From positions 1 through 53,369 of the IMG/VR virus record IMGVR_UViG_3300001848_000569: 53,369 nucleotides of DNA. The stretch is one strand, 5' to 3'. Source of the stretch: a virus. Of the stretch, positions 1,986-28,476 are shown piece by piece (the stretch's first letter is position 1; each line of letters begins with the position of its first letter). The translations under genes were made by a program, and so were the position numbers. The notes below the pieces were generated by a model that was not told the origin of the DNA, searched no databases, and saw only the letters and a program-made list of their open reading frames with translations.

Positions 1986-2504
1986 TTACAAAGTATTAAT
2001 TTTATTACTAATATAATCTAATTTAGAACTAGCTTCATTGATTTTATTACATCTAGCATCAGATTCAGCTGATTCTAAAATCAATAATAAATCTTCTATT
2101 AATTTGATATTTACCTCAGTTTTAGGTAAACACCCCGGAGAATCCCTCATTAATATATTCTTACTATATGCACAAACTAAGAATAGTCTAGTTTGATAAC
2201 ATCTTAGGAATCTACCTCGTATAAATACATCTTCATTTGGACAAACTGAATAAGTATATTCATATATGCCATCTGGAAGAGATTGAATATCCATTCCAAT
2301 TGGTGTTATAAATAAATCACCTGAAGTATAATAATTCGTATTATTTGGTTCAAAGTTTACAAATATATCATTATTTATCCCCGGAACTCTTAATTTCAAC
2401 TGAGGATTAGTAATAGTTAAATCAGGATCATATACACTTATATCCCTGATAACCAACACATTAGAATCTTCTGGCTTTGGTATATATAATGATAAAATAT
2501 GCAT
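1986..2504 (-). CDS. Putative structural protein, first gene of the distal cluster
   Basis: A 172-residue protein. Residues 1-120 look like a beta-sandwich (strands around LSLYIPKPED, LTITNPQLKLRVP, IYEYTYSVCP), and residues 130-172 form a helical tail. It is the first of the four coupled genes running to 668. The 12-bp motif at 2526-2537 lies just upstream, so a transcript may begin here. I infer a virion or tail-tip role from the fold impression and position; no named family is recognised. Confidence 0.65.
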   Translation of the reverse strand: MHILSLYIPKPEDSNVLVIRDISVYDPDLTITNPQLKLRVPGINNDIFVNFEPNNTNYYTSGDLFITPIGMDIQSLPDGIYEYTYSVCPNEDVFIRGRFLRCYQTRLFLVCAYSKNILMRDSPGCLPKTEVNIKLIEDLLLILESAESDARCNKINEASSKLDYISNKINTL

Positions 2505-2538: not shown

Positions 2539-3198
2539 TTAGTATTTAAAATCAAAAATATGTAAAAGAGTGTAAGTAATAGGGGGATTGTCAAATTTCT
2601 CCAAATATGGAATAATCTCTTTTTCTACAGATTCATCCATTACTTGACAGCCAGCCGATAAATTATCTACTGTTATTATATTAAAATTAGCCCATGTATG
2701 AAAATTTATTCCAAATAACCCTGTTTCTTTTGGACTATTTCTATTAATAAAATCTTCCCCCATTTCTCTATAAATGGTACACTGATTAATCTGTTGACAG
2801 TATGGATCGCCCGTCCATCCATTGTATACTTCATTAAATTGCCACAATCCTCTATATTGTCCTTCAACTAAACAAGCACATCCTTTGTGATCTTCTCCAT
2901 GTTGAGATAACCAATATTTACCGGGCTTAGTACTAATAGGAAATCCGATTAACTCACCATTTAAAATAATACATCCCCAATCTGTAAATTCATTTGTATA
3001 AATATCAGACATTCTAATACCTATAATTTGATTTCCTATATCTGAATATCCCTTACTAGTTATAATTTTAAATAACTTATCTTTAAGCATTGAAATAGCA
3101 ATGTTACTCTTTTCACCTATATCCCCATCAACATCTAGTTCTGGGTTTATCAATGCTTTACATATACTTTGTGTAAATTTAGCTAATACCTCAGTCAT
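2539..3198 (-). CDS. Endolysin-like cell-wall peptidase with peptidoglycan-binding N-terminus
   Basis: A 219-residue protein. Residues 8-43, containing LDVDGDIGEKSNIAI, resemble a peptidoglycan-binding type 1 domain. The C-terminal part has His167 in GINFHTW and Cys184 in SAGCQVM. This arrangement of histidine and cysteine is characteristic of L,D-transpeptidase/carboxypeptidase-like phage lysins. It would cut peptide links of peptidoglycan in the periplasm to release progeny. It sits directly after membrane-anchored and holin-like genes (3201-4299), which supports a lysis role. No signal peptide is visible, so export would depend on a holin. The exact bond cut is not evident. Confidence 0.6.
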   Translation of the reverse strand: MTEVLAKFTQSICKALINPELDVDGDIGEKSNIAISMLKDKLFKIITSKGYSDIGNQIIGIRMSDIYTNEFTDWGCIILNGELIGFPISTKPGKYWLSQHGEDHKGCACLVEGQYRGLWQFNEVYNGWTGDPYCQQINQCTIYREMGEDFINRNSPKETGLFGINFHTWANFNIITVDNLSAGCQVMDESVEKEIIPYLEKFDNPPITYTLLHIFDFKY

Positions 3199-3200
3199 AA

Positions 3201-3764
3201 TTATTTTAATCTAATCTTGTATTTAAAACCAACCTCATATAGTTTATTTACTGGATCATAACCACCAGATAGTATATTACCAAGTTTATTTTGATATGAT
3301 AAGTTTAAAAAACAGTTTGGATGAATACCATCATCACTATAAAGATCTATTCCTATTAGTATAGCCCGATTTTGTTTATTAACTATTACTTTAACGGGAA
3401 TTTTTAATTTATAGTTAATTCCCTGATTTATTAGCTTTCCGGCAATAGTATCATTAGTATATATTACAATATTAGTATCTTCATATTTATTTTGTATATC
3501 TCTAACTGATACTTTTTGTCCCGATATAATTATAGTTTTTTCTTTAGTAACTGTATCTATTAGAGTTAAAGTATCATGTTTCCATTTATATATAAATCTA
3601 TTAGAAACTAATGTATCTTCTTTTATTTTTGTTTTATAAGAAGTTAATACATGAATTTTATTATCTTTTACTACTAATATTTTATGGTTGTTTTTACATC
3701 CAATATATAACCCTAAAAATATACCTATAATTAATACCCAAATATAATTATAATACTTATTCAT
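3201..3764 (-). CDS. Membrane-anchored protein of the lysis group (spanin-like candidate)
   Basis: A 187-residue protein. Residues 6-23 (YIWVLIIGIFLGLYIGC) form an N-terminal membrane anchor ending in a cysteine, followed by a soluble periplasmic-type domain made mostly of beta strands and charged residues. It is translated just before the endolysin gene and just after a small two-helix membrane protein, with its start overlapping the stop of the latter. The size and topology fit proteins that accumulate in the envelope late in infection, for example an inner-membrane spanin. A crAss-like conserved protein of another function is possible. Confidence 0.55.
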   Translation of the reverse strand: MNKYYNYIWVLIIGIFLGLYIGCKNNHKILVVKDNKIHVLTSYKTKIKEDTLVSNRFIYKWKHDTLTLIDTVTKEKTIIISGQKVSVRDIQNKYEDTNIVIYTNDTIAGKLINQGINYKLKIPVKVIVNKQNRAILIGIDLYSDDGIHPNCFLNLSYQNKLGNILSGGYDPVNKLYEVGFKYKIRLK

Positions 3765-3988
3765 TATTTATTATTTTTTAAATACGTCATAAACTCCCAA
3801 CTAGTACTACCAAAGAAAAATGATATTAATCCTATTAAATAATAAAATATTTGTGAATCAACAGATTTACAAAATGTATTTATATAACACAAGCTTATAA
3901 ATACTAAAAGCAATAAAGTTCCATTTACTCTTTTTGAACTAGTAGATCCATCTGGACCACTTAACATATCTTTTATAAAAGTTTTCAT
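3764..3988 (-). CDS. Holin-like small membrane protein
   Basis: A 74-residue protein with two hydrophobic segments, about residues 23-40 and 47-64, separated by a short polar turn, and charged ends. The N-terminus KDMLSGPDGSTSSKR is cytoplasm-like. This is the usual layout of class II holins and of small holin-like proteins in Bacteroidetes phages. It lies between another one-helix membrane protein and the membrane-anchored protein before the endolysin, with one-base overlaps on both sides. Holin is inferred from size, topology and neighbours. Confidence 0.6.
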   Translation of the reverse strand: MKTFIKDMLSGPDGSTSSKRVNGTLLLLVFISLCYINTFCKSVDSQIFYYLIGLISFFFGSTSWEFMTYLKNNK

Positions 3989-4299
3989 TATTTTGATTCT
4001 TTAAAATCATTTTCTAGTCTATCCTGATTTTTTTCTAATCCCTTTATTTGTTCTGATAACTTAATTATACTACCATTTAATTGTTCAAGAGTTGTTCTTA
4101 AGCCACCATAAATAATATTTAAATTATTTACTTGTTTATCAAAAAAATCATGTTTTTCTTCAAGCTTTGTTATCCTGTTATCAAAATGATTAGCTTTACT
4201 ATTTAACCATCGGAATGAAAGAAAAAGTGTAACAATAATACCAAGTAATAAATAAATATCATTTAATGTAATTGGTATATTAGTAATATCTAAGAACAT
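3988..4299 (-). CDS. Membrane protein with coiled coil (holin accessory candidate)
   Basis: A 103-residue protein. One membrane segment lies at about residues 13-32 (NDIYLLLGIIVTLFLSFRW) and is followed by a long heptad-rich helix to the end (ITKLEEKHDFF, LEQLNGSIIKLSEQI, LEKNQDRLEND). The topology is like small hemolysin/holin-accessory proteins, which anchor a coiled coil to the inner membrane. It overlaps the holin-like gene by one base. Confidence 0.55.
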   Translation of the reverse strand: MFLDITNIPITLNDIYLLLGIIVTLFLSFRWLNSKANHFDNRITKLEEKHDFFDKQVNNLNIIYGGLRTTLEQLNGSIIKLSEQIKGLEKNQDRLENDFKESK

Positions 4300-4316
4300 T
4301 TTATAATAATTTTAGT

Positions 4317-4520
4317 TTAAAAATCAGTATCAGAATCAAGTTGTATAATTTGTGGAAGATTATTTGGGTCAAATAGTTCAGGAAAATCATTTAATGTATT
4401 TGAACTACAAACATTTTTATTGTCCTTTGTTTTTCCAAATCCAATAATAGAACACCCAGATTTATATCCAGTATTCTTATCTACAAAGTCTTGCGTTACT
4501 TCTATATAAAATGATTTCAT
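4317..4520 (-). CDS. Hypothetical protein, 67 aa
   Basis: A short, soluble, acidic protein with two cysteines and a beta-strand-like start (FYIEVTQDFVDKNTGYKSG). It lies between a LamG-like fibre gene and the membrane/lysis genes, with very short gaps on both sides. No family is recognised. Confidence 0.6.
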   Translation of the reverse strand: MKSFYIEVTQDFVDKNTGYKSGCSIIGFGKTKDNKNVCSSNTLNDFPELFDPNNLPQIIQLDSDTDF

Positions 4521-4522
4521 AT

Positions 4523-5302
4523 TTATACTTGTCTACCTAATGTTGTTTGAAATGTTTGTACTCTAGAATATAAATTACTCATATCTGTCTGACTTAAACC
4601 AGATCCAATTGATGCCCAAGCTAGATTTCTAGGGGCCGCATTAAAATCATTATTTCTACCACCAACCCAAATAGAATTGGTAGGAAGAGATGTACTAGCA
4701 ATAGATCCAGTATAATACGTTGAATTTCTTTGACCTTGAAGGGTAGTAGAAGATTGTCTTGAACCTATATATAAACCACTTCCATCTCCAATTGTTTGTC
4801 CGGGTTCAGTGCCACCAGAGCCATTAATTTGATAATAAAATTTGTTATCAGTCCACATACACTCTAAATCACATATTATAGTTGTAGATTGCTTACATCC
4901 CATATCTACTTTAGCAAAGCCACCAGTAGTTCTAGAATACACACTCATATGAGTATTATTTAAACTCAGAACGCTATTTGGTACTAATCCACTATCTGTA
5001 TATTGAGTGGTACCATTAAAGGTTATGCCATTACTATTAACTGTAGGACTACCACCCAATGTTAAATCATAAGTACCGGGGGTTTTTAAATTTCCAATTA
5101 CTGTATTGTTTGTCCCACCCACCATTGGGTATATGGCAGTCATTTTTGCCCAAAGACTATCATTCTTTAATCCAATGACTAATGTATTAACAGCACTAAT
5201 AATGGTCCCATTTGTTATCCCATAATAATTAAAAAATGCTTGAGCATTAGTATCATTTTGGGATATAGAACTAGCTATTATTCCTATAGATGCAGAAATC
5301 AT
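4523..5302 (-). CDS. Fibre-associated protein with concanavalin/LamG-like fold
   Basis: A 259-residue protein. After a helical N-terminus (AQAFFNYYGITNGTIISAVNTLV), residues ~90-250 look like a laminin-G/concanavalin-like beta sandwich: GITFNGTTQYTDSGLVPN, HMSVYSRTTGG, LYIGSRQSSTT, IWVGGRNN. Phages use such domains on receptor-binding tail or head fibres to bind glycans. It lies three bases from the end of the fibre-like gene 5305-6375, so the two are probably parts of one appendage. The fold is inferred from strand pattern and the residue spacing usual in phage 'N-G-x-x-Q-Y' modules. Confidence 0.6.
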   Translation of the reverse strand: MISASIGIIASSISQNDTNAQAFFNYYGITNGTIISAVNTLVIGLKNDSLWAKMTAIYPMVGGTNNTVIGNLKTPGTYDLTLGGSPTVNSNGITFNGTTQYTDSGLVPNSVLSLNNTHMSVYSRTTGGFAKVDMGCKQSTTIICDLECMWTDNKFYYQINGSGGTEPGQTIGDGSGLYIGSRQSSTTLQGQRNSTYYTGSIASTSLPTNSIWVGGRNNDFNAAPRNLAWASIGSGLSQTDMSNLYSRVQTFQTTLGRQV

Positions 5303-10767: not shown

Positions 10768-12225
10768 TTATGCAAGAACTACAGATGGTTTTAAAATACC
10801 AGTTCTAGTGACATCTTTTACCCAAATACCACATCTATCACGTGCTACAAGAGTATAGGCATCTTCAGTATTAGAGAGAACAGAGCCCTTTAACTCCCAA
10901 GGAGCAGAAGTACCAATTACATAACCATACTTTAAAGTATTTGGCATTCTAACCATGTAAATATTATCAGCACCTTCACCACTCAAATCAGTAATATAGA
11001 AAGTCTTAGATTCGATAGGATATCCATCTCTAGGATCTCTCATATTATTGGTAATATCTACATCTAAGTAAGGTAAATGCTTTAATGTAACAGTACCGCC
11101 ATTTACAAGTCTATATGCTTTAATTTGATACCCATAGGTAAGATTCATATTATCTGTACCTTGAATAACATTTTGTGCAGGAATTAAGAATTTATTTGCT
11201 TCATCCTTAAAGGCTTCATCAAACATTCTCATACCAATTTCACCTGTCATAAGCTCAATATTTCTATTTTCGCCAGCTACACGACCAAAGTGAACATCCA
11301 TAAGATAATCACGAATTAACTTAGCATCAAACTTACCATAAGTTTCAACATTACCCCACTCAAGTTGTTGTTTAAAACCATATGGGGAACGAGTCTTATA
11401 GCCCTTTTCACCATCTAAGTCCTGAGATCCACGACCCCAGAATAACATATTGCCCTTCTGTTTATCAAGTTCTTTCCAGAACTTTAATTCAGCACGACTA
11501 ATCCACTTAGTATCAGTAACTTTAATTACATTACCTGTCGAATCATCAACCTCAACTTGATCAAATTGAAGCACACGATCATCCACATAACCAGTTACTT
11601 TATGTTGTAATCTGATCATATCAGGAAGTTGATCCTTCAACTCGATCATTTGTTCAAAGTGCAAGTTTGTAGCTTGACTTGATTGCTCAGAAAACACACC
11701 GTGAACATTTACATATTCAGAGCCGGGGCGCATTAACCACTGTGGATAATAATCCAAAGCATTATCTGTAACTAACTGAACAGTATACACCCATCCACCA
11801 GACTCTTGATAAGGAGCCATTTGTTGTGATATACGAACAAAATGTTGTTTATCCGTAGTTAAAACTTCACCGGGAGAAAACCAGTCTTGGTCTAATTTTA
11901 ACTTGAAATACTGACGATCAATACCAGCCTTACTATTAGTAGATTCAAGATTTTCAAGAACTACAGCTGGGCGAGGTCTAATAGCCTGTTTCCAAGTCCA
12001 AGTATCAGTTGTACCATCCAATTCACGAACCTTCATTCTACCCTGAGTTAACTCACGAATAGGGTCATTTGGATATTGCATAAAACCAAATGCCATTTGA
12101 AGAGCATCATCAAACATTTGTGGATTGATGTTAGCAAAAGTTGAAAGGTGATTGCTATCAATCATACCAGACAATCTTTTGCCTTCTCTTATAACAAGTT
12201 TATTAGATGTATTAGTATACGCCAT
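10768..12225 (-). CDS. Major capsid protein (HK97-type fold, crAss-like)
   Basis: A 485-residue protein, the normal size for crAss-like major capsid proteins. The N-terminal arm and the body contain the features I associate with this family: DDALQMAFGFMQYPNDPIREL, then TWTWKQAIRPRPAV and a long central region with KLDQDWFSPGEVL. The C-terminus returns to a beta-rich end. It forms the icosahedral shell. It is directly preceded by a scaffold-like acidic protein and followed by head-tail genes. Codons are less extremely AT-biased than in small neighbours, in line with high expression. Confidence 0.85.
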   Translation of the reverse strand: MAYTNTSNKLVIREGKRLSGMIDSNHLSTFANINPQMFDDALQMAFGFMQYPNDPIRELTQGRMKVRELDGTTDTWTWKQAIRPRPAVVLENLESTNSKAGIDRQYFKLKLDQDWFSPGEVLTTDKQHFVRISQQMAPYQESGGWVYTVQLVTDNALDYYPQWLMRPGSEYVNVHGVFSEQSSQATNLHFEQMIELKDQLPDMIRLQHKVTGYVDDRVLQFDQVEVDDSTGNVIKVTDTKWISRAELKFWKELDKQKGNMLFWGRGSQDLDGEKGYKTRSPYGFKQQLEWGNVETYGKFDAKLIRDYLMDVHFGRVAGENRNIELMTGEIGMRMFDEAFKDEANKFLIPAQNVIQGTDNMNLTYGYQIKAYRLVNGGTVTLKHLPYLDVDITNNMRDPRDGYPIESKTFYITDLSGEGADNIYMVRMPNTLKYGYVIGTSAPWELKGSVLSNTEDAYTLVARDRCGIWVKDVTRTGILKPSVVLA

Positions 12226-12250: not shown

Positions 12251-13423
12251 TTATTTTCCTATTAGAACTTTTGTTTTATCAGCAAAAAGATTTTTCCAAG
12301 TATCTTGGGTTTTCTTTTCAGCAGTTATTTTTTGATCATCTTCAACAGTTAAACCAGTTGACTTGACTCTTGCTGCTCCTCTTGATGCGCTTTTTAATTT
12401 ATCTGCTAATTCAGATGTAGCCTCAACTTTAGCGGCTTTTTTTATACCCTCAACATTATACTTATTAAAACGCATCATATTGCGAAATATATAAGACTCT
12501 ACATCATTTTGTTCAGCTAGTTCATCTGCATATGCCTGACTTACAAATTGACCATTATCTAGCTTAACTGTGGGTTTAAAAAGATATTCTTCAAACTTCT
12601 TTTTAGTTCTAGCATCTTTTATATTAAAAAGACCTTTAACAGAATCATTTTTAGTTATAAAGTCTTTAACTGAACTAATTGCCTCATCCTTTTGTTTTTG
12701 GATAAGTTTTTCACTTTCTATTTGTTGTTTTTGAAACTCAGCTTGTTCTTTTTCTTGAACATCCTTTAATGCTAATAAGGCATCCTGAGCTTCATCCGCT
12801 AAAATACCAGAATCTTTAAATTTAGTAATTTTAGCTTTTATTCTTTCATCATTTAAACTGGTAGTCCTACGTAAAAAAGCCTCAACTACCTGTTCCTGAT
12901 CATTTTCATTCTTTAAATCCACATCTTTAAGTGGATCAGAATATACCTCAACAAATGAATTTAAATCACCCCCATTTTTAATATAATTAAAAAGATTAAT
13001 GGCCATATCAGCCTGTGGGTGACCTTCAAATATTGTCTTAATTGTATTATTTACTCGATTATTAACTGTATTTTCAAATGACTTTATAAATGAAGTCTCA
13101 TCTTCAATTTTATCTTCATCTGAAAGGTCAATAATGCCCTTAGTGGCAAGTTCTTTAGATAATATAGAAAATGTATTATTTTCTGGTTCATCTTCCTCTA
13201 CATCTTCCGTAGAAGTTTTTGTACCATCAATTTCAATTTCCTTAGTTAATTCTGTTTTAGGATCCTTTGGATCTTTTTCTACCTTTGGTAGAACAATTTC
13301 ATCATCATTAACTTCTAAAGCTTCTTGGCCTTCTTTACCTTTCTGAGATTCTTCACTATTCTCAGTTTTTGGTGTAATGATAGATGAAAAACTTGGAGTT
13401 AATTCAAAAAGTTTTTCTATCAT
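12251..13423 (-). CDS. Scaffold-like head assembly protein
   Basis: A 390-residue, very charged protein. Residues 20-90 are an acidic, Lys/Glu/Asp-rich, low-complexity segment (EKDPKDPKTELTKEIEIDG). The middle and end are long helices, several with coiled-coil heptads (ALKDVQEKEQAEFQKQQ). It lies between portal and major capsid, the classic place of a scaffold or internal head-assembly protein. It has no protease motif that I can see. Scaffold is inferred from composition and gene order. Confidence 0.65.
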   Translation of the reverse strand: MIEKLFELTPSFSSIITPKTENSEESQKGKEGQEALEVNDDEIVLPKVEKDPKDPKTELTKEIEIDGTKTSTEDVEEDEPENNTFSILSKELATKGIIDLSDEDKIEDETSFIKSFENTVNNRVNNTIKTIFEGHPQADMAINLFNYIKNGGDLNSFVEVYSDPLKDVDLKNENDQEQVVEAFLRRTTSLNDERIKAKITKFKDSGILADEAQDALLALKDVQEKEQAEFQKQQIESEKLIQKQKDEAISSVKDFITKNDSVKGLFNIKDARTKKKFEEYLFKPTVKLDNGQFVSQAYADELAEQNDVESYIFRNMMRFNKYNVEGIKKAAKVEATSELADKLKSASRGAARVKSTGLTVEDDQKITAEKKTQDTWKNLFADKTKVLIGK

Positions 13424-13496
13424 AATACTTAAATTTAAGAAATTTTATTTAATATAAAGTATTTATTATCAATTAGTTATATAATTAGTATATAAG

Positions 13497-13513
13497 TCAT
13501 TGATTATCAATGA
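13497..13513. repeat. Near-perfect palindrome TCATTGATTATCAATGA
   Basis: A 17-base dyad in the gap between portal and scaffold genes. Fifteen of its bases recur exactly at 23692-23706, and the core recurs inverted at 23789-23800. A role as binding site for a phage or host regulator, such as an IHF-like protein, is possible. Confidence 0.5.
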
Positions 13514-13523
13514 GTTAAAATTT

Positions 13524-16130
13524 TTATTTTTTATTATTCTTATCGGTTTTAGCTGACATTTTTCGTATTTTTAGTTTTTCTAATTTACTTTTAGCATTTA
13601 ATTCTTTATTTTTAAATGCTAATTGATCATCGGCCATTTGCTTTTGTATATCAGTTTGATGTTTAATTGCTTCTGTTCTTTTATTCTCAGTATCTTTTTT
13701 AGACTGAATATCTTTTTCCTTTAATTTAATTTCATGTTGACGTTGTTTTTCTTTATCTATTACTTCATTAGTATGTTCCAATTGTTTTTGTTGTAACTCT
13801 GCCTGTTGAATTATTAAATCAGAAGAATCTGGATTTTGAAATTCAACTTGACCTAATGTTTTCATTTCAGCTATTTCAAGTTCAACTTGACGATCTTTTT
13901 CTTTATTAGCATCTTCTCTATCAAGTTTTTCTATTTCTAAATCCTTTTTATCTTGAATAACTTGTTGCTCTTGCTGCATTTTTTGTTGTGCCATTTGAGC
14001 ATTAAGTTCCTTGAGTTCTTCTAGTTTTTCACGTATTACTGCAATAGAATCTTCTGATAATATCATGGCCACATCTGCTAAAGGAGTACCATTTTGTAAA
14101 GCAGGTTGAGCTAATTGTCGTAATGCCTGCAAAGCCTGTTGATCTTTAGCACTATCGGTAATATATACAGATAAATCAGAGAATGTAAACTTTTTACCAT
14201 CTATTTCTAGAAAACCTATACTCATATCATCTAAGAAAAAGGTTTCTTCACTAGTTTTATCAGCATATAAAGACTTAGCTTCTTCTAATAAATTAGTTAA
14301 AACACGAGCTTTAATATTATCATGTGTTCTAAAAAAATCATCTGTTTGATTAAAACTTCTATTTAATGCTGCATTAGTAGCAGTAGCAGTCTCACTTTGA
14401 GTAGCTTGTCCTAATCTTTGAACATTAAATCCTACTTGTTGCCAACACTTTTGTTCTAAAAGATTTAATAATTCAATTTTAGTTTGTATTGCTTGACCAA
14501 GAGTTGCATCAATTGAAGTAAATTGATTAAAAGTAGCTGGTTTTCCTTCAGCAGTAGGATCAACCATTACAATTTTCATTTTCTTAATCCAATATAACCA
14601 TTTTTCTAAATCCCACCCTTGCTTAGTTGGAATTTGGTTTGGATCCATTAATAATAATTGCCCTAATTCACTATTAAAATCTTCTTCTAGTTTATCTAAT
14701 ATAATATTATATAAAGCCTGATGAGGTTTCATTTCATCTACTATAGACACTGGTTTAGTATTTAAGGCATTGTAAACACCTCCAGTATATCCCAATTTAG
14801 TACCATATAGACGATTCATTGATCTATATTGGTTTTCTTTAGGTTGAACCTTTATATAAATATTCTGCCCTATTTTAGTTCCCTCCCATGCCTCATTAAT
14901 CCAAATTTCTTCAGACTCCCATCCCATTTCTTTTTGTTGCTTAGATAGTTTAAATTCACCATCTAATATCATTACTTGAGGATTACCATCATTATCTAAA
15001 AAGGTTATTTTATTTAATAATCTTCTAGACATCCACTCTGCATGGACTACTAATATATGATTTCTATAGCCATAAAGATTATTATAAGCATACTGATTAG
15101 AACTAGGACTAAATTCAAATATTCTATAGTCAGGACTAATAGGATACCTAGAATCATTCATAGCTGCCATTAAATATGGGTATCCATATTCAGTATATTG
15201 TTCAACGGTAGAAACATTAGGGTTAGTAGTAGTACCACCATTTCTATCATAATTCTCAATAGTTTTTACTTCCTCATCTGTTAGATACATTTTATATCTA
15301 TCAATTATATGAGCTTTTGTCATATAAACTCCTCTTACTACCCAATCTGCTTCATCTATATATGATACACTATCAGATTTATCATATACTATTTCAACAG
15401 GATTTATGTTTTCAACTATAAGTTGATCATTTAATCTACCAATCCAATAGTATTCTTCTGCTACTATACTAGCATGTTTAATACCAGTTTGAAATTTTTC
15501 CTTTAATAAAAGTTGTTTATTAAATTTATTTAAAAGAACAGTTCCAGTTTTTTCAATAGTAGTAGTATATTTTCTACGCATAAAATTTTCAATATCAGGT
15601 GGACTCATGGAATTTTGAGTATCTTGATATTGTTTATCATTTGGGTCTGATAAACCCATTGATTGTAATTGTTGAGCTACTATATTTTGTATATTACTCA
15701 TTACATAATGTTGTAATAAAGTAGTTTTATATCGTATATACTCATTTTTATTTTCCTCATCCTCACCTTTAACAATGAAACTAAATGGTCGTTTAGTTTC
15801 TTCTCCCCATAAATCTTTTAATGGTAAATTAAGTATAGGATAATGTTTAACAGGTTTATTCATATCCCCTAAATCCATACCTTCATAAGTAGTGGATAGG
15901 GCATTATATAATTCAGGAGTAAATTCACCAGCAACTAGTTTATAATTTACTATTTTTTCTCTTCTCCTATATGAATTTGTCATCCATTGGGTAGTAAAAA
16001 AATCCATACAATCTTTTTGCCAATTCTCATCTTTCTGAGTATATGGAATAGTTTGTATTGGTAAATAAAACTTATTACCACTAGTTGTTCTAGGATTAGA
16101 TAATGCTGGAAAAATATCAATAAAACCCAT
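13524..16130 (-). CDS. Portal protein (crAss-like)
   Basis: An 868-residue protein. The first ~600 residues have the portal body: MGFIDIFPALSNPRTT, the wing/crown segments, NINPVEIVYDKSDS, and the region DPNQIPTKQGWDLEKWLYW to the stem, followed by QVGFNVQRLGQATQSETATATN. The last ~170 residues are an unusually long, lysine- and glutamate-rich coiled-coil (DIQKQMADDQLAFKNKELN). The portal is the dodecameric ring through which DNA is packaged; this matches its place between the terminase and the scaffold/capsid genes. A candidate promoter lies upstream at 16169-16180. Confidence 0.85.
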   Translation of the reverse strand: MGFIDIFPALSNPRTTSGNKFYLPIQTIPYTQKDENWQKDCMDFFTTQWMTNSYRRREKIVNYKLVAGEFTPELYNALSTTYEGMDLGDMNKPVKHYPILNLPLKDLWGEETKRPFSFIVKGEDEENKNEYIRYKTTLLQHYVMSNIQNIVAQQLQSMGLSDPNDKQYQDTQNSMSPPDIENFMRRKYTTTIEKTGTVLLNKFNKQLLLKEKFQTGIKHASIVAEEYYWIGRLNDQLIVENINPVEIVYDKSDSVSYIDEADWVVRGVYMTKAHIIDRYKMYLTDEEVKTIENYDRNGGTTTNPNVSTVEQYTEYGYPYLMAAMNDSRYPISPDYRIFEFSPSSNQYAYNNLYGYRNHILVVHAEWMSRRLLNKITFLDNDGNPQVMILDGEFKLSKQQKEMGWESEEIWINEAWEGTKIGQNIYIKVQPKENQYRSMNRLYGTKLGYTGGVYNALNTKPVSIVDEMKPHQALYNIILDKLEEDFNSELGQLLLMDPNQIPTKQGWDLEKWLYWIKKMKIVMVDPTAEGKPATFNQFTSIDATLGQAIQTKIELLNLLEQKCWQQVGFNVQRLGQATQSETATATNAALNRSFNQTDDFFRTHDNIKARVLTNLLEEAKSLYADKTSEETFFLDDMSIGFLEIDGKKFTFSDLSVYITDSAKDQQALQALRQLAQPALQNGTPLADVAMILSEDSIAVIREKLEELKELNAQMAQQKMQQEQQVIQDKKDLEIEKLDREDANKEKDRQVELEIAEMKTLGQVEFQNPDSSDLIIQQAELQQKQLEHTNEVIDKEKQRQHEIKLKEKDIQSKKDTENKRTEAIKHQTDIQKQMADDQLAFKNKELNAKSKLEKLKIRKMSAKTDKNNKK

Positions 16131-23706: not shown

Positions 23707-23936
23707 TTATTTTGTATTAAACTTTCAAAAATAATTGAAAGATGATTAAAAAGTTATTAGAATTTTGTTAAAGATTTTACATAACTTGTTGATAATCAAT
23801 CATTTTTCACTTAACATAACATTCAACTTTAACAAAATTTGTTTTTTTAACGGCGGTTTTATTTCATTTACAGCCATTTTATTTTTGTCCATTTCCAAAC
23901 AACTCTTATACGGTCCTTCTCAAAGAGTCTAAACAA

Positions 23937-24047
23937 ATGAGAAAATCAGCCTGTAAACAATCAGGTGTGGTGCGTGGTAGCTCAAACCAAAAAACTAATC
24001 AATCATGGATCCCAAAAAAAATCCCAACTATCAGAGGATCAACGTAG
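23937..24047 (+). CDS. Possible 36-aa basic protein (doubtful)
   Basis: A 36-codon frame (MRKSACKQSGVVRGSS at the start) with many Lys/Arg/Ser residues, overlapping the first 43 bases of the 24005-24328 gene. It could be a leader peptide or a small basic packaging-type protein, but may be chance. Confidence 0.25.
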   Translation: MRKSACKQSGVVRGSSNQKTNQSWIPKKIPTIRGST

Positions 24048-24328
24048 ATCAACTGTTGGCCAAGTCTGATAAGATCAGCAATGCAGCCATTCGTTCAGCC
24101 ATCTCCAAGATGGAAGAAGAGAAGCAAAAGCTTCAGGAAGAAAAGCTTCTCGAACGCATTGGAGAGATACAAGCACATACTGCCAGTAAGCTGAATCATC
24201 TCCGCTTTGTACGTGAAGAAGAAAAGAAAGCAAAGAAGCAACTTCAGGTCTTTGCAGCTGCCGAACAACTATTCTATGAAACAGCAGATTTCGATCAGTA
24301 CAAAGAGTACATTGTCAAAAACCTCTAA
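24005..24328 (+). CDS. Small coiled-coil protein with GC-richer codons
   Basis: A 107-residue, almost entirely helical protein: residues 30-60 (AIRSAISKMEEEKQKLQEEKLL) form a strong coiled coil, then a Lys-rich second helix, and an aromatic end (LFYETADFDQYKEY). Codon choice is shifted to G/C third positions, like the 22690-23145 gene and unlike the rest. The pair may have come together. The start 'NPNYQRINVDQLLAKSDKIS' seems familiar from small gut-phage (Microviridae-type) proteins, without proof. A long structured 3' segment with a terminator follows. Confidence 0.7.
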   Translation: MDPKKNPNYQRINVDQLLAKSDKISNAAIRSAISKMEEEKQKLQEEKLLERIGEIQAHTASKLNHLRFVREEEKKAKKQLQVFAAAEQLFYETADFDQYKEYIVKNL

Positions 24329-24718
24329 AGAGGGAGTGGATTAGGCCACTATAAAGGGATAACAATCCCAGTAAAAATATATGGGTTAGAGTGAATTAAC
24401 ACTTGTAAGAGGCTTAGCTTCAATCTATATTGTCTGAAAAGGTAAAATGTGGTGTAAACTGTAACTACTTATACATAAGCACATTTCAGACTTTTACTAG
24501 CTATTTAAGCCTAATGCGTTCAAGTTTACTTGAGGTATAGATGATAATTTAGATATAGAAACGAAAGCTATTCAAAGAGCTTGACTCAACGAATATAAGA
24601 AGAATTAACTTCTTAGTTCACCCCCTAATAAAATCTCTGAAGTAGAGATTAAAAAGGCTTCAAATTTTGAAGAGAGGGAACTTGTTTTCAATCAAACCTT
24701 CATGGTAAAAAATCATTT

Positions 24719-24762
24719 ACAGTAGAGTTTCTATGGAAACATAGTTTTATCTACTGTTTTTT
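24719..24762 (+). terminator. Rho-independent terminator
   Basis: The stem ACAGTAGA/TCTACTGT encloses an inner hairpin (TTTCTATG/CATAG) and is followed by TTTTTT. It closes the transcript carrying the 24005-24328 gene. Confidence 0.8.
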
Positions 24763-24781
24763 AAAAATAACATATCTTATC

Positions 24782-24796
24782 ATAATCAATATAAAA
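24782..24796 (+). repeat. 15-bp direct repeat, right copy (ATAATCAATATAAAA)
   Basis: Second copy of the repeat at 22504-22518, ten bases upstream of the ATG at 24807. Confidence 0.6.
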
Positions 24797-24806
24797 CAGT
24801 CAACTT

Positions 24807-25016
24807 ATGGAATTCTCATACACTAAAACTGCCTACGGCACAAACAGACTTACTATTCAAAGACAGGAGATAACCAATCCCAATACAATAGTAGCATTAA
24901 ACGCTTTTTGTATTTGGGGAGGTGCTGATAAAGTGGATTCAAGGGAGATGAGTTGGGAATTTGAAGAATCTATAATCTTTGACATTATTAATCGAGCTTT
25001 AACAAGACTTGATTAA
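24807..25016 (+). CDS. Hypothetical protein, 69 aa
   Basis: A short soluble protein (MEFSYTKTAYGTNRLTIQRQ; EESIIFDIINRALTRLD) with strand-rich start and a helical acidic end. It opens the accessory region and stands alone between two long non-coding stretches. Codon use is AT-rich again, like the rest of the phage. No family is recognised. Confidence 0.6.
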   Translation: MEFSYTKTAYGTNRLTIQRQEITNPNTIVALNAFCIWGGADKVDSREMSWEFEESIIFDIINRALTRLD

Positions 25017-25528
25017 ATGTTACTATTTAAGCTAGTTTATGAACAGCCACAATATACGTATAAAAATAGAGCATATTAATATAGGTAATATTTTTTGGTA
25101 TATTGATTTAGTAACCAGATAATTTTTATCATGGTGAACATAAGAGGTGAGATGCCTTATAATGGAAAACTAATATTTACTTTTAATAGTAAATATAGTT
25201 AGTGGGGAGGGATTCCCATTTAGATCGGTGGTTTTCATGTTTCAGCCAGAAAAACATGATGTTAAAAGTACCTATAACGGGATACTAGTATTGACGCGGC
25301 ACTTAAATGTTGACTGCCTCTATACAGTGGTGTGCAAAGCCCGTTTTTATACAAATTAAGATGTGACCTTTTATAAGATTGGTCATTATGTATATATAGT
25401 AAACAAAAACTTTAGGAAGGGCGGCCAACCAAGTTCTAGGAAGAGTGTTATCTAGATACCTAAAGATCCATTTCTCACAATGGAAAACACGACTGCATAC
25501 ATAAAACCTTAGTGAGACAAGGTTTTAG

Positions 25529-25552
25529 CTCAGGTAAACCTCTGAGTTTTTT
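25529..25552 (+). terminator. Probable terminator within the ncRNA stretch
   Basis: A CTCAG/CTGAG hairpin is followed by a run of six T, immediately after the AAAACCTT/AAGGTTTT hairpin. It would end an RNA starting somewhere after 25016. Confidence 0.6.
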
Positions 25553-25560
25553 ATAATATT

Positions 25561-25616
25561 TTAAGTGGTAATATAATATCGTTAAATAGGGTTCGAGTCC
25601 AAGTGAGAACACTTAA
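25561..25616 (+). ncRNA. Stem-closed RNA element with T-loop-like sequence
   Basis: TTAAGTG at 25561-25567 pairs with CACTTAA at 25610-25616. Inside is GGGTTCGAGTCC, which resembles a tRNA T arm, but no full cloverleaf can be drawn. It may be a tRNA-derived remnant or mimic. Confidence 0.4.
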
Positions 25617-25622
25617 TAAAAT

Positions 25623-25712
25623 AAAAATTTAGTGCCAATTTATTAGTCGTTTAACGACTGGGGTATTCTGGTAAGATATCATACAAAGGGTAATAACCTT
25701 AACTAAATTTTT
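25623..25712 (+). ncRNA. Stem-closed RNA element, 90 nt
   Basis: An exact 11-bp inverted repeat (AAAAATTTAGT at 25623, ACTAAATTTTT at 25702) closes the element; an inner AGTCGTT/AACGACT hairpin sits at 25645-25659. It abuts the next element without a gap. Confidence 0.45.
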
Positions 25713-25863
25713 AATTAACTAAGTAATTGTTTTAACGGGGGTTGAAAGTTCTAATGGGTCCAGTGATCCGCTAAATTATAGCTAGTGAGGGGTAAATTTT
25801 AGTAAATTTTACTAGAGGATGTACTATATCGAAAGATATACAAGCTTAGTTACTTAGTTAATT
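25713..25863 (+). ncRNA. Stem-closed RNA element, 151 nt, followed by T run
   Basis: An exact 14-bp inverted repeat (AATTAACTAAGTAA at 25713, TTACTTAGTTAATT at 25850) closes the element and is followed by TTTTT, so the final stem could also serve as terminator. Inside is a gene-free sequence with TCCGCTAAATTATAGC and a small TATATC/GATATA hairpin. Confidence 0.5.
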
Positions 25864-25942
25864 TTTTTAAAATCTGCGTTATTTGATACTTGAGCAAGTA
25901 TAAAACAATAGAAGTCCAATAGATTTTTGGGTACACACTTCT

Positions 25943-26051
25943 ATAAACATATAGGGTTAAAGTGACATCAGTAATATAGCGTACTAAAAGCAGTAGAGTT
26001 AAATCTATAAGGAGACATCGTTATATGAAAGTCCACTTTTAATATGTTTAT
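25943..26051 (+). ncRNA. Stem-closed RNA element, 109 nt
   Basis: An exact 10-bp inverted repeat (ATAAACATAT at 25943, ATATGTTTAT at 26042) closes the element. It contains AAAGTGAC, similar to AGAGTGAA found near 24389 and in the 27064 element. Confidence 0.45.
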
Positions 26052-26069
26052 TTTAAACAATTTTGTAAT

Positions 26070-26276
26070 ATGGAACTAAAGCGAGATAATAAAGGTAATT
26101 TTTATAAAATAGAGAAAATATATACTTCTGTTTTAAATACTACTCTTATTTCAAAAGAAGAATATCTTACTATATTAGAAAAAAAATTATTTTTATTACT
26201 AAAATACAAAAAAGAGTTAGGATCTTTTTGTAATATTAAAGAACTACAAAAAGAAATTAAATCTTTAAAGAACTAA
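26070..26276 (+). CDS. Small Lys-rich helical protein, 68 aa
   Basis: A 68-residue protein (KRDNKGNFYKIEKIYTSVLN at the start) followed by two Lys/Leu-rich helices (KKLFLLLKYKKELG, KELQKEIKSLKN). It is flanked on both sides by structured non-coding DNA. A nucleic-acid-binding function is possible from charge alone; no family is recognised. Confidence 0.55.
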   Translation: MELKRDNKGNFYKIEKIYTSVLNTTLISKEEYLTILEKKLFLLLKYKKELGSFCNIKELQKEIKSLKN

Positions 26277-26710
26277 ATTTATCAATTTTAAAATAAAGGC
26301 TAAACATTGATCCTTTGTGAATTATTATGATAGCCCAGAGCATGAATGGCATATAAATATTAAGGAGGGTTTCCATACTTAACGATGCAATAATTCACAT
26401 AAAGATACTAATCCTGAATTGACAGGTTATTAATTTGATATCTACTGAAGTAATCACACTACAATTGCATAGTGGAAGAGATTGTTAATTAATATGGAGT
26501 AATCCTAGACTTGTTGTTCCCTTGAGAAAGGAATGAAACATAACAAATCCGACACCCTACAATGGAAGCAAAGCCTTGAAGGAGATGGACTCACAACAAG
26601 AATGTGTTCTCAGCTTGACCCTACTCTTATCTATCAGTGCTTGCACGGTACGTTTAAGACAAGAGGGTGCTAATAAACTAAACTTTAAACTTAAAATTAA
26701 AAAACTACAA
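26277..26710 (+). other. Gene-free structured segment before a membrane protein gene
   Basis: 434 bases. The stem-closed element at 26316-26399 lies at its start; a CACTA/TAGTG hairpin is near 26460, and ACACCCT near 26553 can pair with AGGGTGCT near 26664. A reading frame through the end of it exists but has no good start and no protein-like features before 26711. Confidence 0.5.
26316..26399 (+). ncRNA. Stem-closed RNA element, 84 nt
   Basis: An exact 11-bp inverted repeat (TGTGAATTATT at 26316, AATAATTCACA at 26389) encloses a loop with GGAGGGTTTCC and further small hairpins. The architecture is that of the other elements in this region. Confidence 0.45.
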
Positions 26711-27058
26711 ATGGATTTCAAACTAATTTTCGTAATTGTCATTGTAGCTTTCAGTGGTTTTCTCATTGTAAAATGTGGAAATGACATGAAAGTTGAGCAC
26801 GTAACTAATTGTAAAGTTATTCATTTACAACAACAGCAAATTATTTCTGGTCAAAATAATAATTTAAGTACTAAAATTCGTTACTTAGTTATTACTAATA
26901 AAGAAACTTTTGTTTGTGAATCTTCCTTGATTAATAATAAATTCGATAATTCAGATATTTTCTTTCGATTAAAGGAGGGAGAAACATATAATTTTAAGGT
27001 ATGTGGATGGGGTAAATCAGTTTTAACTGATTATCGTAATATAATCCAAATTGAATAA
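26711..27058 (+). CDS. Membrane-anchored protein, 115 aa
   Basis: Started at the ATG at 26711, the protein has an N-terminal membrane segment (FKLIFVIVIVAFSGFLIV), then Lys-Cys and a soluble extracytoplasmic domain with mostly beta strands (IRYLVITNKETFVCESSL; FFRLKEGETYNFKVCGWG). The anchor topology suggests an inner-membrane or periplasmic protein. It may modify the host envelope, for example in superinfection exclusion, but there is no direct sign of that. The stem-closed element 27064-27173 begins five bases after its stop. Confidence 0.6.
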   Translation: MDFKLIFVIVIVAFSGFLIVKCGNDMKVEHVTNCKVIHLQQQQIISGQNNNLSTKIRYLVITNKETFVCESSLINNKFDNSDIFFRLKEGETYNFKVCGWGKSVLTDYRNIIQIE

Positions 27059-27063
27059 AATAA

Positions 27064-27173
27064 ACTATAAATATAGAATATCAATGGTGGTATGTTATGG
27101 TAACGTAACAGAAACTAGAGTGAACTGGTCTAAATCACTTTAGGAGAATTGTTAAAGGGTCTATATTTATAGT
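27064..27173 (+). ncRNA. Stem-closed RNA element directly upstream of tRNA-Met
   Basis: An exact 14-bp inverted repeat (ACTATAAATATAGA at 27064, TCTATATTTATAGT at 27160) closes a 110-base element containing AGAGTGAACTGG. It ends four bases before the tRNA, so both may come from one processed precursor. The element before tRNA-Leu at 35179 has the same AAATATAG/CTATATTT closing bases. Confidence 0.5.
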
Positions 27174-27177
27174 AAAT

Positions 27178-27249
27178 AGCGGGATAGCGCAGTGGTAGAG
27201 CAGAAGTTTCATAAGCTTCAGGTCGGAGGTTCAATTCCTTCTCCCGCAA
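27178..27249 (+). tRNA. tRNA-Met (anticodon CAT), initiator-like acceptor end
   Basis: D arm GCGC...GAGC, anticodon stem GAAGT/GCTTC with loop TTCATAA (CAT), T arm GGAGG/CCTTC. The first base pair is an A-A mismatch, similar to the unpaired end of bacterial initiator tRNAs, but the three G-C pairs of the initiator anticodon stem are missing. A CAT anticodon modified to read AUA (Ile) cannot be excluded. Confidence 0.85.
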
Positions 27250-27398
27250 CTAGTAAGAAAAGTTTATTATTTATACGAATAATATTAAAACAATGTGAGT
27301 ACTTCATAATTTCAACTCTTAATTAATATGAGAAGTGGAGAGGTAGCTGAATTAACAGTAGCGAAGCTTTGTACTTTTCTTATTTTAAAAATCAAAAC

Positions 27399-27698
27399 AT
27401 GGAAACACAAAAGCATCGTTCTGTTTTAGAACTATTACAATTAATGTTAGATAATAAGATTCTTTTTGAAAGTTGATTATGTTCATGGGTATATAGATTA
27501 TTTCATAAAAGACTTATTTCAGTTGAAGAATTTAATTGTTTATTTACTTATATACAGTTAAATAGACCATCAAAGTATTCTTCTTTTGGAGCTTATATTT
27601 GCAAGGAAAGATCATATTATTGGAATCTGGGTAATATTAAGCCAAGAATTAAATGGATAAAGAAACATATTAAAAAATTAAAAGAACAAACAAAATGA
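27399..27698 (+). CDS. Small phage protein interrupted by in-frame TGA (codon 26)
   Basis: ATG at 27399, TGA at 27474-27476, and the frame then continues to a TGA stop at 27696-27698. Read through, it gives a 99-residue protein: a helical start (QKHRSVLELLQLMLDNKILFES), then LCSWVYRLFHKRLISVEEFNCL and a C-terminus YYWNLGNIKPRIKWIKKHIKK. This arrangement matches a small family common in Bacteroidetes phages, in which the segment before 'LCS' is continuous. No ATG lies just after the TGA to restart. Recoding, readthrough or a recent nonsense mutation could explain it. The stop overlaps the next start (ATGA). Confidence 0.6.
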
Positions 27699-27862
27699 GA
27701 GAACAACATTTCCCCATTTCTATCCCTTTTATGGATACAATGTTACCTATAATGCTTCCTTCTTCACCAATTTTTCCTCCTAAACGTCACACTAAAATGA
27801 GTTACAGGACACAAAATAAGCTTGCTAAAAAACGTAAGCATTTTAAAAATCGTGAGAAGTAA
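27695..27862 (+). CDS. Small basic C-terminal protein, 55 aa
   Basis: A 55-residue protein, proline- and methionine-rich in the first half (FPISIPFMDTMLPIMLP) and strongly basic in the second (KRHTKMSYRTQNKLAKKRKHFKN). It starts within the stop of the previous gene (ATGA), so translation is likely coupled. A nucleic-acid-binding tail is plausible; no family is recognised. Confidence 0.5.
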   Translation: MREQHFPISIPFMDTMLPIMLPSSPIFPPKRHTKMSYRTQNKLAKKRKHFKNREK

Positions 27863-27952
27863 CAAAATATAACTTCTTTTAAATCCCTTTGGCTGTCTTT
27901 TAGATAGTATCCATTAAATTTGAAAGAAGTTTATTTTTTAATTAGAATAATT

Positions 27953-28396
27953 ATGAAAAAGAAATTATATTTAGACGATATAAGGATTCCAAAAGATGAA
28001 TCTTGGAAAGTAGTAAAAAGTTTTGAGAAATTTGTACAAGCTATCGAACAAGAATTTCCAGATATAATTTCGTTTGATCATGATCTTGGCAAATTTGCCA
28101 TGAACGATTATTATAAAAACCAATATAACGGGGTTGATAAAATTAATTATTCATATATTAATAAAAATGGTGAAATGACTGGTCTTGATTGTGCCAAATG
28201 GTTAATTGATTATTGCATGAATAAATCATTGTCATTACCAAAGTGTTATGTTCACTCAGCTAATCCAATTGGGTCTGATAATATTATGGGCTTATTGAAT
28301 AATTTTTTAAAGAAGGTTGAAAACAAAGAACCCAATGTTATTAGAACTTTCTGGGAATTAGATGACGAAAAAATGCAAAATAATCTTTTAAATTGA
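27953..28396 (+). CDS. Cyclic-phosphate-processing receiver-like protein (cREC)
   Basis: A 147-residue protein with the motifs of the cREC_REC family: LYLDDIRIP near residues 5-13 with the aspartate pair, IISFDHDLG near 39-46, GLDCAKWLIDYC, and VHSANPIGS, then a C-terminal helix. The family has been proposed, from gene context in RNA-repair and phage systems, to act on cyclic-phosphate RNA ends. I chose the ATG at 27953 over an upstream TTG because the family starts there. It ends with TGA eight bases before tRNA-Pro; repair of cleaved tRNA would suit this neighbourhood. Confidence 0.8.
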   Translation: MKKKLYLDDIRIPKDESWKVVKSFEKFVQAIEQEFPDIISFDHDLGKFAMNDYYKNQYNGVDKINYSYINKNGEMTGLDCAKWLIDYCMNKSLSLPKCYVHSANPIGSDNIMGLLNNFLKKVENKEPNVIRTFWELDDEKMQNNLLN

Positions 28397-28403
28397 TTAT
28401 TAT

Positions 28404-28476
28404 ATAGGATTAGTTCAGTTGGTAGAACGCTTGCTTTGGGAGCAAGAGGTCGGTGGTTCAAGTCCACTATCCTATA
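28404..28476 (+). tRNA. tRNA-Pro (anticodon TGG)
   Basis: Acceptor ATAGGAT/ATCCTAT, D arm GTTC...GAAC, anticodon stem CTTGC/GCAAG with loop TTTGGGA (TGG, codon CCA), T loop GTTCAAGTC. CCA is not encoded. Confidence 0.92.

Follow-up and report, generated by a model that had tools for sequence, protein, structure and literature searches.

Within a 53,369-nucleotide (nt) viral record (IMG/VR IMGVR_UViG_3300001848_000569; hereafter the window), the stretch 24329-27173 contains a member of a family of large, multi-helix phage RNAs that is not detected in Rfam 15. The window member occupies 26295-26673 on the plus strand (about 380 nt, ends approximate) and is supported by a covariance model match, by covariation in its relatives and by its own sequence. 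That the family is real we regard as practically certain. A first-pass annotation had read the stretch as a series of stem-closed non-coding elements of one repeating small-unit design. Its seven inverted repeats were all found to be exact, with the positions and lengths it gave; 25623-25712 even grows to 12 base pairs (bp; 25622-25713). It was also right that the stretch is mostly non-coding, with three short open reading frames (ORFs) only (24807-25016, 26070-26276 and 26711-27058, the last counted from its ATG), and that transfer RNA (tRNA) genes adjoin it. The single repeating design was not borne out, several different elements being present instead: the large RNA occurs only once in the region (next best match 12.7 bits), the repeat 26316-26399 is an arm of the large RNA, 24432-24491 lies within the insert of a Pistol-like candidate ribozyme (24335-24540), and the remaining units have no demonstrable common module.

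A family of large phage RNAs

When the stretch and its surroundings were searched with blastn, 26394-26530 was found to be 73% identical to Cellulophaga phage phi14:2, besides matches to tRNA and transfer-messenger RNA (tmRNA). Read side by side, the window and phi14:2 are similar from TAAACATTGA to AGAGGGTGCTAA. Two 19-nt patterns gave 23 and 104 IMG/VR stretches, a few of which matched by chance (L020, for instance, is coding). Removal of redundancy around the core, which spans approximately 230-500 nt, leaves about 88 copies. Among 84,980 bacterial species genomes, scanned with one pattern, a single match was obtained, on a contig whose model score (54.3 bits) makes it a genuine member. A match in crAss001 (24 bits, E 0.002) was rejected as weak, with P3 mispaired and the variable part nearly missing.

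The large RNA was matched by no Rfam 15 family at E<=5 within 23800-28450 of the window, a check that the first-pass annotation had proposed. The same holds for the GOLLD and ROOL models, which gave no match at E<=5 there nor any in the relatives, so that the earlier description of structured RNA beside tRNA genes, distinct from GOLLD and ROOL, stands by Rfam search. In five relatives searched at E<=1 just tRNA, tmRNA and one 33-nt DUF805b match were obtained, and nine further loci at gathering scores gave tRNA and tmRNA families only. The DUF805b RNA match (L019, 1208-1240, minus strand; 29.4 bits, E 1.5e-4, cut-off 35.6) is located close to the 3' part of that RNA. The open-access literature yielded no description of this RNA or of its conserved sequences, most subscription papers, bioRxiv preprints and supplementary tables (e.g. 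the ones belonging to PMC8040213, a survey of RNAs in the human microbiome) being beyond reach; its papers on large phage RNAs cover GOLLD, ROOL and OLE (PMC12286853). RNAs of this kind, large, unexplained and located in phage tRNA islands, are already known; judged by sequence and fold, none of those compared matches the present family. It is easily overlooked, having no Rfam 15 model, and in phi14:2 (KC821624, predicted at about 2905-3360) the record shows small hypothetical ORFs in its place.

The family fold consists of six helices and a pseudoknot, and in the window copy P1, P2, P3, P5, H5 and P7 can all form, as judged from sequence and coordinates. P1 is a short hairpin with a nearly fixed loop, AAACATTGA, and a stem that changes freely (AGG/CCT, CTCG/CGAG, AGTCGT/ACGACT, CCGCT/AGCGG, ACTTGA/TCAAGT); in the window it is formed by 26295-26299/26312-26316. 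P2 (GTRAAT/ATTYAC, paired in relatives) bears a variable arm and is missing from some members. The window P2 (26317-26326/26389-26398) is the exact 11-bp repeat 26316-26399 that had been listed as a separate unit. P3 has two forms, of which the short one is a 5-bp hairpin with the loop AGTAAT, and the long one, found in the window, is made up of an ATCCTG-AATTGA-CAGGAT hairpin, a variable arm and a GG-AGTAAT-CC hairpin (P3a 26412-26415/26423-26426, P3b 26428-26435/26487-26494, AGTAAT hairpin 26496-26505). P5 (GTGTTG/CAACAC) closes H5 (TTCC/GGAA, loop CTTGAGAAA), and a TTCTCAG downstream is able to pair with the H5 loop. In the window, P5 (26510-26516/26594-26600) is altered on both strands to CTTGTTG/CAACAAG, H5 lies at 26517-26520/26530-26533, and the pseudoknot would join 26522-26528 with 26607-26613. 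P6 (GTAGTTA/TAACTAC) is optional and is absent from the window copy, as it is from L021 and L069. The 3' end of the RNA is P7 (ACCCT/AGGGT and CTTAT/ATAAG), which in the window runs from 26617-26629 with 26655-26668. All these parts lie on the plus strand, and no open frame runs through the window copy. A core covariance model made from 33 other phage copies, the window copy being left out, matched the window at 26487-26625 with 44.3 bits in cmsearch (E 1.4e-9 to 7e-8, the latter in 309 kb).

Covariation was assessed in a core alignment of 33 phage copies and in an alignment of the 3' domain of 35 copies. In the core alignment 96.3% of the cells were paired versus 85.8% in shuffles, and changes on both sides of a pair affected 10 pairs and 61 cells versus 6.1 and 12.7; none of 500 shuffles reached any of the five measures. 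These shuffles leave the kinship among the copies in place, which is offset in part by a slide control, in which pairing went down to 36-47% when the partners were moved by 1-3 columns. Two-sided changes were present in all five pairs of P3 and all four of H5. The 3' domain was paired for 93.4%, with two-sided changes in 7 pairs; 0 of 500 shuffles were as good on four measures and 17 of 500 on the fifth. When only the anchors were compared, P1, P2, P5, H5 and P6 were above all 300 partner shuffles. The conservation of paired bases in related phages, on which the first-pass annotation had staked its reading, therefore holds for the large RNA, of which the 26316-26399 stem is a part. At one P3 pair U-G is the commonest type, and the orientation of the element agrees with that of tRNA and tmRNA. 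This indicates that the element acts as RNA and not as DNA.

Some loci depart from the single-copy arrangement or carry further elements. Tandem pairs of copies, approximately 350 nt apart, occur in L023 (~3850-4670, plus strand), L027 and L039, and in L037 (3080-3842, plus strand) the RNA is seemingly split: a coding-like insert separates the 5' part at 3080 from the 3' part, the latter being preceded by a second P1. Upstream of the large RNA a recurrent non-coding element, GTGGTCCTACATCCAC...GGATTGGTCTCTGATGTTAGGGAACACTTGTGAGTTGC, is present in L117, L118 and L127; a second one, ATAGCTAAGCTGTGTAAAGC...GAAGCTA, recurs in L035, L044 and L117.

A probable Pistol-like ribozyme with a structured insert

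At the beginning of the stretch, 24335-24540 (plus strand) is probably a Pistol ribozyme that has taken up an insert. Three stems can pair, as can the pseudoknot that links the P1 loop to the P2-P3 junction: P1 (24335-24339/24346-24350) is part of AGTGG-ATTAGG-CCACT-ATAAA at 24335-24355, P2 is CTAT/ATAG (24501-24504/24537-24540), P3 is TTCAAG/CTTGAG (24519-24524/24529-24534), and TTAGG in the P1 loop (24341-24345) is complementary to CCTAA at 24510-24514. The nucleotides that we take to be the conserved set of Pistol, after comparison with the Rfam consensus line, are present (the A-rich linker ATAAA 24351-24355, TTAAG 24505-24509 with its AAG ahead of the pseudoknot strand, GCG 24516-24518 and GU 24535-24536). 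P2, P3 and the GU step follow the Pistol consensus described in PMC4604425. What sets the element apart from Pistol (RF02679), with which it shares P1, P2, P3, the pseudoknot, the ATAAA linker, TTAAG, GCG and the GU step, is a structured insert of 145 nt (24356-24500) between linker and P2. The exact 8-bp inverted repeat 24432-24491, which had been taken for a unit of its own, is part of the predicted fold of this insert (z=-2.5).

The Rfam Pistol model aligned only the 3' half (24488-24540), with 26.5 bits. As this is under the gathering cut-off of 34.5, and as the insert leaves P1 unaligned, the element is called Pistol-like and is not filed as a member. With the linker permitted to reach 250 nt, a full descriptor matched at this place only in 2.4 Mb. 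Shuffled sequence (12.1 Mb) gave no match, a control that gauges chance and not the choice of descriptor, because the descriptor was composed after the candidate had been seen. In viral contigs the P1 pattern gave one match, which is without the other parts of the ribozyme, and no relatives of the 107-amino-acid protein encoded upstream were found.

The ribozyme would cut the transcript of the gene at 24005-24328 at the predicted GU step, between 24535 and 24536, and would thereby free an RNA of approximately 230 nt. That RNA would end in a terminator-like hairpin followed by T6 at 24719-24762 (plus strand). This hairpin was recognized in the sequence (24626-24775 has z=-4.9) and is not among the output of the terminator scan, which limits loop size. 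The same island encodes a cREC_REC protein with a cyclic-phosphate-processing receiver domain (27920-28393, plus strand; PF20274, E 1.1e-22). Pistol cleavage leaves a cyclic phosphate; a link between this protein and the cleavage product is speculation.

Neighbours and possible role of the large RNA

The source phage of the window is crAss-like: a Crassvirus major capsid protein is encoded at 10768-12225 on the minus strand (PF23898, E 1.6e-79), with portal and terminase on the same strand. A TerL search for its near kin returned only the identical sequence and two distant ones. The stretch is situated between a leftward structural block and a rightward gene block, just ahead of tRNA-Met (27178-27250, plus strand; ARAGORN, Rfam 57.5 bits), tRNA-Pro and a phage tmRNA (29130-29503, plus strand; ARAGORN, Rfam 63.5 bits). 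The tmRNA carries the tag ANNVRPMFAKKKVATTFYAKRVLAAA.

A capsid of the crAss family was found in 24 of 50 contigs carrying the large RNA; the others include contigs of up to 373 kb. In these 50, tmRNA was detected in 9 contigs over the Rfam cut-off and in 11 at E<1e-15. By coordinates, 9 of the 11 have it downstream of the large RNA on the same strand, either approximately 160-240 nt past the modelled part (G014, G021, G025, G043 and G045) or 1.1-7.3 kb downstream (G023, G029, G033 and G044). The order large RNA then tmRNA is also seen in phi14:2, L024, L028, L106, L114, L119 and the window. In L021 the tmRNA is upstream, and the large RNA has a tRNA (2233-2301, minus strand; Rfam 31.3 bits) within its variable P3 arm. 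The tmRNA of phi14:2 (L002, KC821624; 4031-4500; ARAGORN, Rfam 46.0 bits with a cut-off of 47) is unannotated, small hypothetical ORFs being given instead. L107, a contig with the large RNA, contains a permuted tmRNA of the two-piece type (13335-13599, plus strand; RF04321, 57.8 bits).

The explanation that we favour on balance takes the RNA family, the Pistol-like element and a role in translation together, with the stretch as the front portion of the RNA island of a crAss-like phage. The large RNA would be transcribed together with the tRNA and tmRNA genes, be released by processing and act in trans as a stable, possibly oligomeric structural RNA. During infection it may act on translation, through the handling of ribosomes, tRNA or tmRNA, a role comparable to those of GOLLD and ROOL. 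Tentatively, it might represent a further class of large RNA of tRNA islands that is unrelated in sequence to these two and works with phage tmRNA and tRNAs. With similar reserve, this class could be imagined to take over or protect host translation, accompanied here by an insert-bearing Pistol that processes a neighbouring transcript.

Several points weigh against this explanation. It is the neighbours alone that suggest a role in translation, which is put forward tentatively, and in 2 of the 11 tmRNA contigs (G019 and G031) the tmRNA is far away. Flavobacterium phage FpV4, which is among the best capsid matches, has a tmRNA and no significant large-RNA match; thus the two are not strictly coupled. 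No tmRNA is seen on many of the large-RNA contigs, although these may be incomplete. Since the pseudoknot and P7a show next to no variation, covariation neither tests nor supports them. Finally, no relative carrying the same Pistol insert was found.

Alternatively, the large RNA could be a self-assembler like GOLLD and ROOL, which form homo-oligomeric cages: several copies would make up a closed particle in which tRNAs, ribosomes or other cargo are stored or shielded while the cell lyses. It occurs in the same sort of place, phage tRNA and tmRNA islands, and has many conserved loops and a pseudoknot. Like GOLLD it is a large multi-helix phage RNA near tRNA genes, and the tRNA in the variable arm of L021 recalls GOLLD linkers, which sometimes hold tRNAs (PMC12286853). 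However, it has no similarity to the GOLLD or ROOL models, is shorter and carries other conserved sequences. ROOL is likewise a large phage or prophage RNA near tRNA islands, of unexplained function (PMC12286853), but it was described from prophages, while the large RNA is nearly absent from the scanned bacterial genomes. Self-assembly of this kind is considered rather unlikely.

A role as a leader that regulates in cis whatever gene or tmRNA follows would fit the position of the RNA 37 nt ahead of the ORF 26711-27058 in the window and directly ahead of tmRNA in several relatives. This is unlikely, as the downstream feature varies among phages (small ORF, tmRNA or tRNA), the RNA is larger and more complex than usual leaders, and tandem copies occur (L023). 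Still less probable is a decoy or inhibitor of host defence, for instance of nucleases that attack tRNA or translation, carried along with replacement tRNAs and tmRNA. The association with tRNA and tmRNA islands and the near absence from bacterial genomes agree with it, but the conserved loops suggest a specific, stable partner instead of a changing decoy.

To the large structured phage RNAs of the GOLLD and ROOL type, which are widespread and unexplained, one more family, unrelated in sequence, is now added. It is distinguished by strong covariation, approximately 90 distinct copies and a recurrent tie to phage tmRNA. Because one member belongs to a phage that is cultured with its host (phi14:2 on Cellulophaga baltica), the function of the family is directly testable.

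Other stem-closed units of the stretch

Inverted repeats with arms of 10 bp or more, 30-140 nt apart, were counted in 24329-27173 and in 200 dinucleotide shuffles of it. The stretch has 5 of them versus a mean of 0.79, and no shuffle reached 5. The whole window contains 37, i.e. approximately 2 per 2.85 kb, which brings the local excess over the phage background to about 2.5-fold. In the DNA of related phages such repeats are in general about 1.5-fold more frequent than in shuffles, even at kilobase distances from the large RNA. An excess of stem-closed units as a companion of the large RNA was rejected: 44 were found versus 29 expected upstream, yet 18 versus 11 far off, and the excess is thus not specific to this RNA. 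The excess in the stretch is real, but the count by itself is only moderately unusual. Folding energies in sliding windows do not make the stretch stand out, with z near 0 even for the conserved large RNA.

Two units (both plus strand) are good candidates for real RNAs according to predicted folding; the z-scores of all five units discussed here are biased downwards because the pieces were chosen as stem-closed. One, 27064-27173, closed by an exact 14-bp repeat, may form a four-way junction (z=-5.2, 0 of 200 shuffles as good) and stops 4 nt ahead of tRNA-Met. The other, 25713-25863, also with an exact 14-bp closing stem, is predicted to be multibranched (z=-3.9, 1 of 200 shuffles as good). An internal 19-mer of the former and an internal 20-mer of the latter had no exact match elsewhere, and for the units outside the large RNA and the Pistol-like element no relatives were found. 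The position of 27064-27173 is reminiscent of the tRNA-associated theta ribozymes, structured RNAs that adjoin phage tRNAs in Bacteroidota phages (PMC10879173). These are hepatitis delta virus (HDV)-like and lie directly behind tRNAs, whereas 27064-27173 precedes one, and no HDV-like match was found.

Weaker candidates are 25622-25713 (exact 12-bp repeat; z=-2.9 for 25623-25712) and 25943-26051 (exact 10-bp repeat; z=-2.3), both on the plus strand. The 7-bp unit 25561-25616 (plus strand, exact repeat) is unsupported as the structured unit it had been called, since it folds no better than shuffles (z=-0.2). That it might be a decayed tRNA, as its GGTTCGAGTCC motif could suggest, was rejected: the motif is not beside the acceptor-like stem, and the Rfam tRNA model gives no match. 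The recurrence of AGAGTGAA/AAAGTGAC that had been pointed out exists; no indication was found of its marking a common module. Whether these three units are chance hairpins in AT-rich intergenic DNA is nearly an even question. The 37 repeats across the window, the excess in related phage DNA even far from the large RNA, and z-scores of -0.2 to -2.9 speak for chance, while the 5 repeats versus 0.79 in the shuffled stretch, and the far better than shuffled folding of the further units 25713-25863 and 27064-27173, speak against it. A role of the repeats as DNA, e.g. as an origin or recombination site, would suit their location between two divergent gene blocks and is nevertheless very improbable, given the common G-U pairs in the conserved helices, the constant orientation of the family relative to tRNA and tmRNA, and a pseudoknot that would be unexpected in duplex DNA.

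Two minor features remain. A weak hairpin pair at 25171-25273 (plus strand) resembles the wcaG RNA (RF01761) in its two hairpins and in the letters of junction and loop; it was rejected as such, as it scored 21.9 bits in Rfam where 42 are required. The terminator scan returned a terminator-like hairpin with a T tail at 25527-25552 (plus strand).

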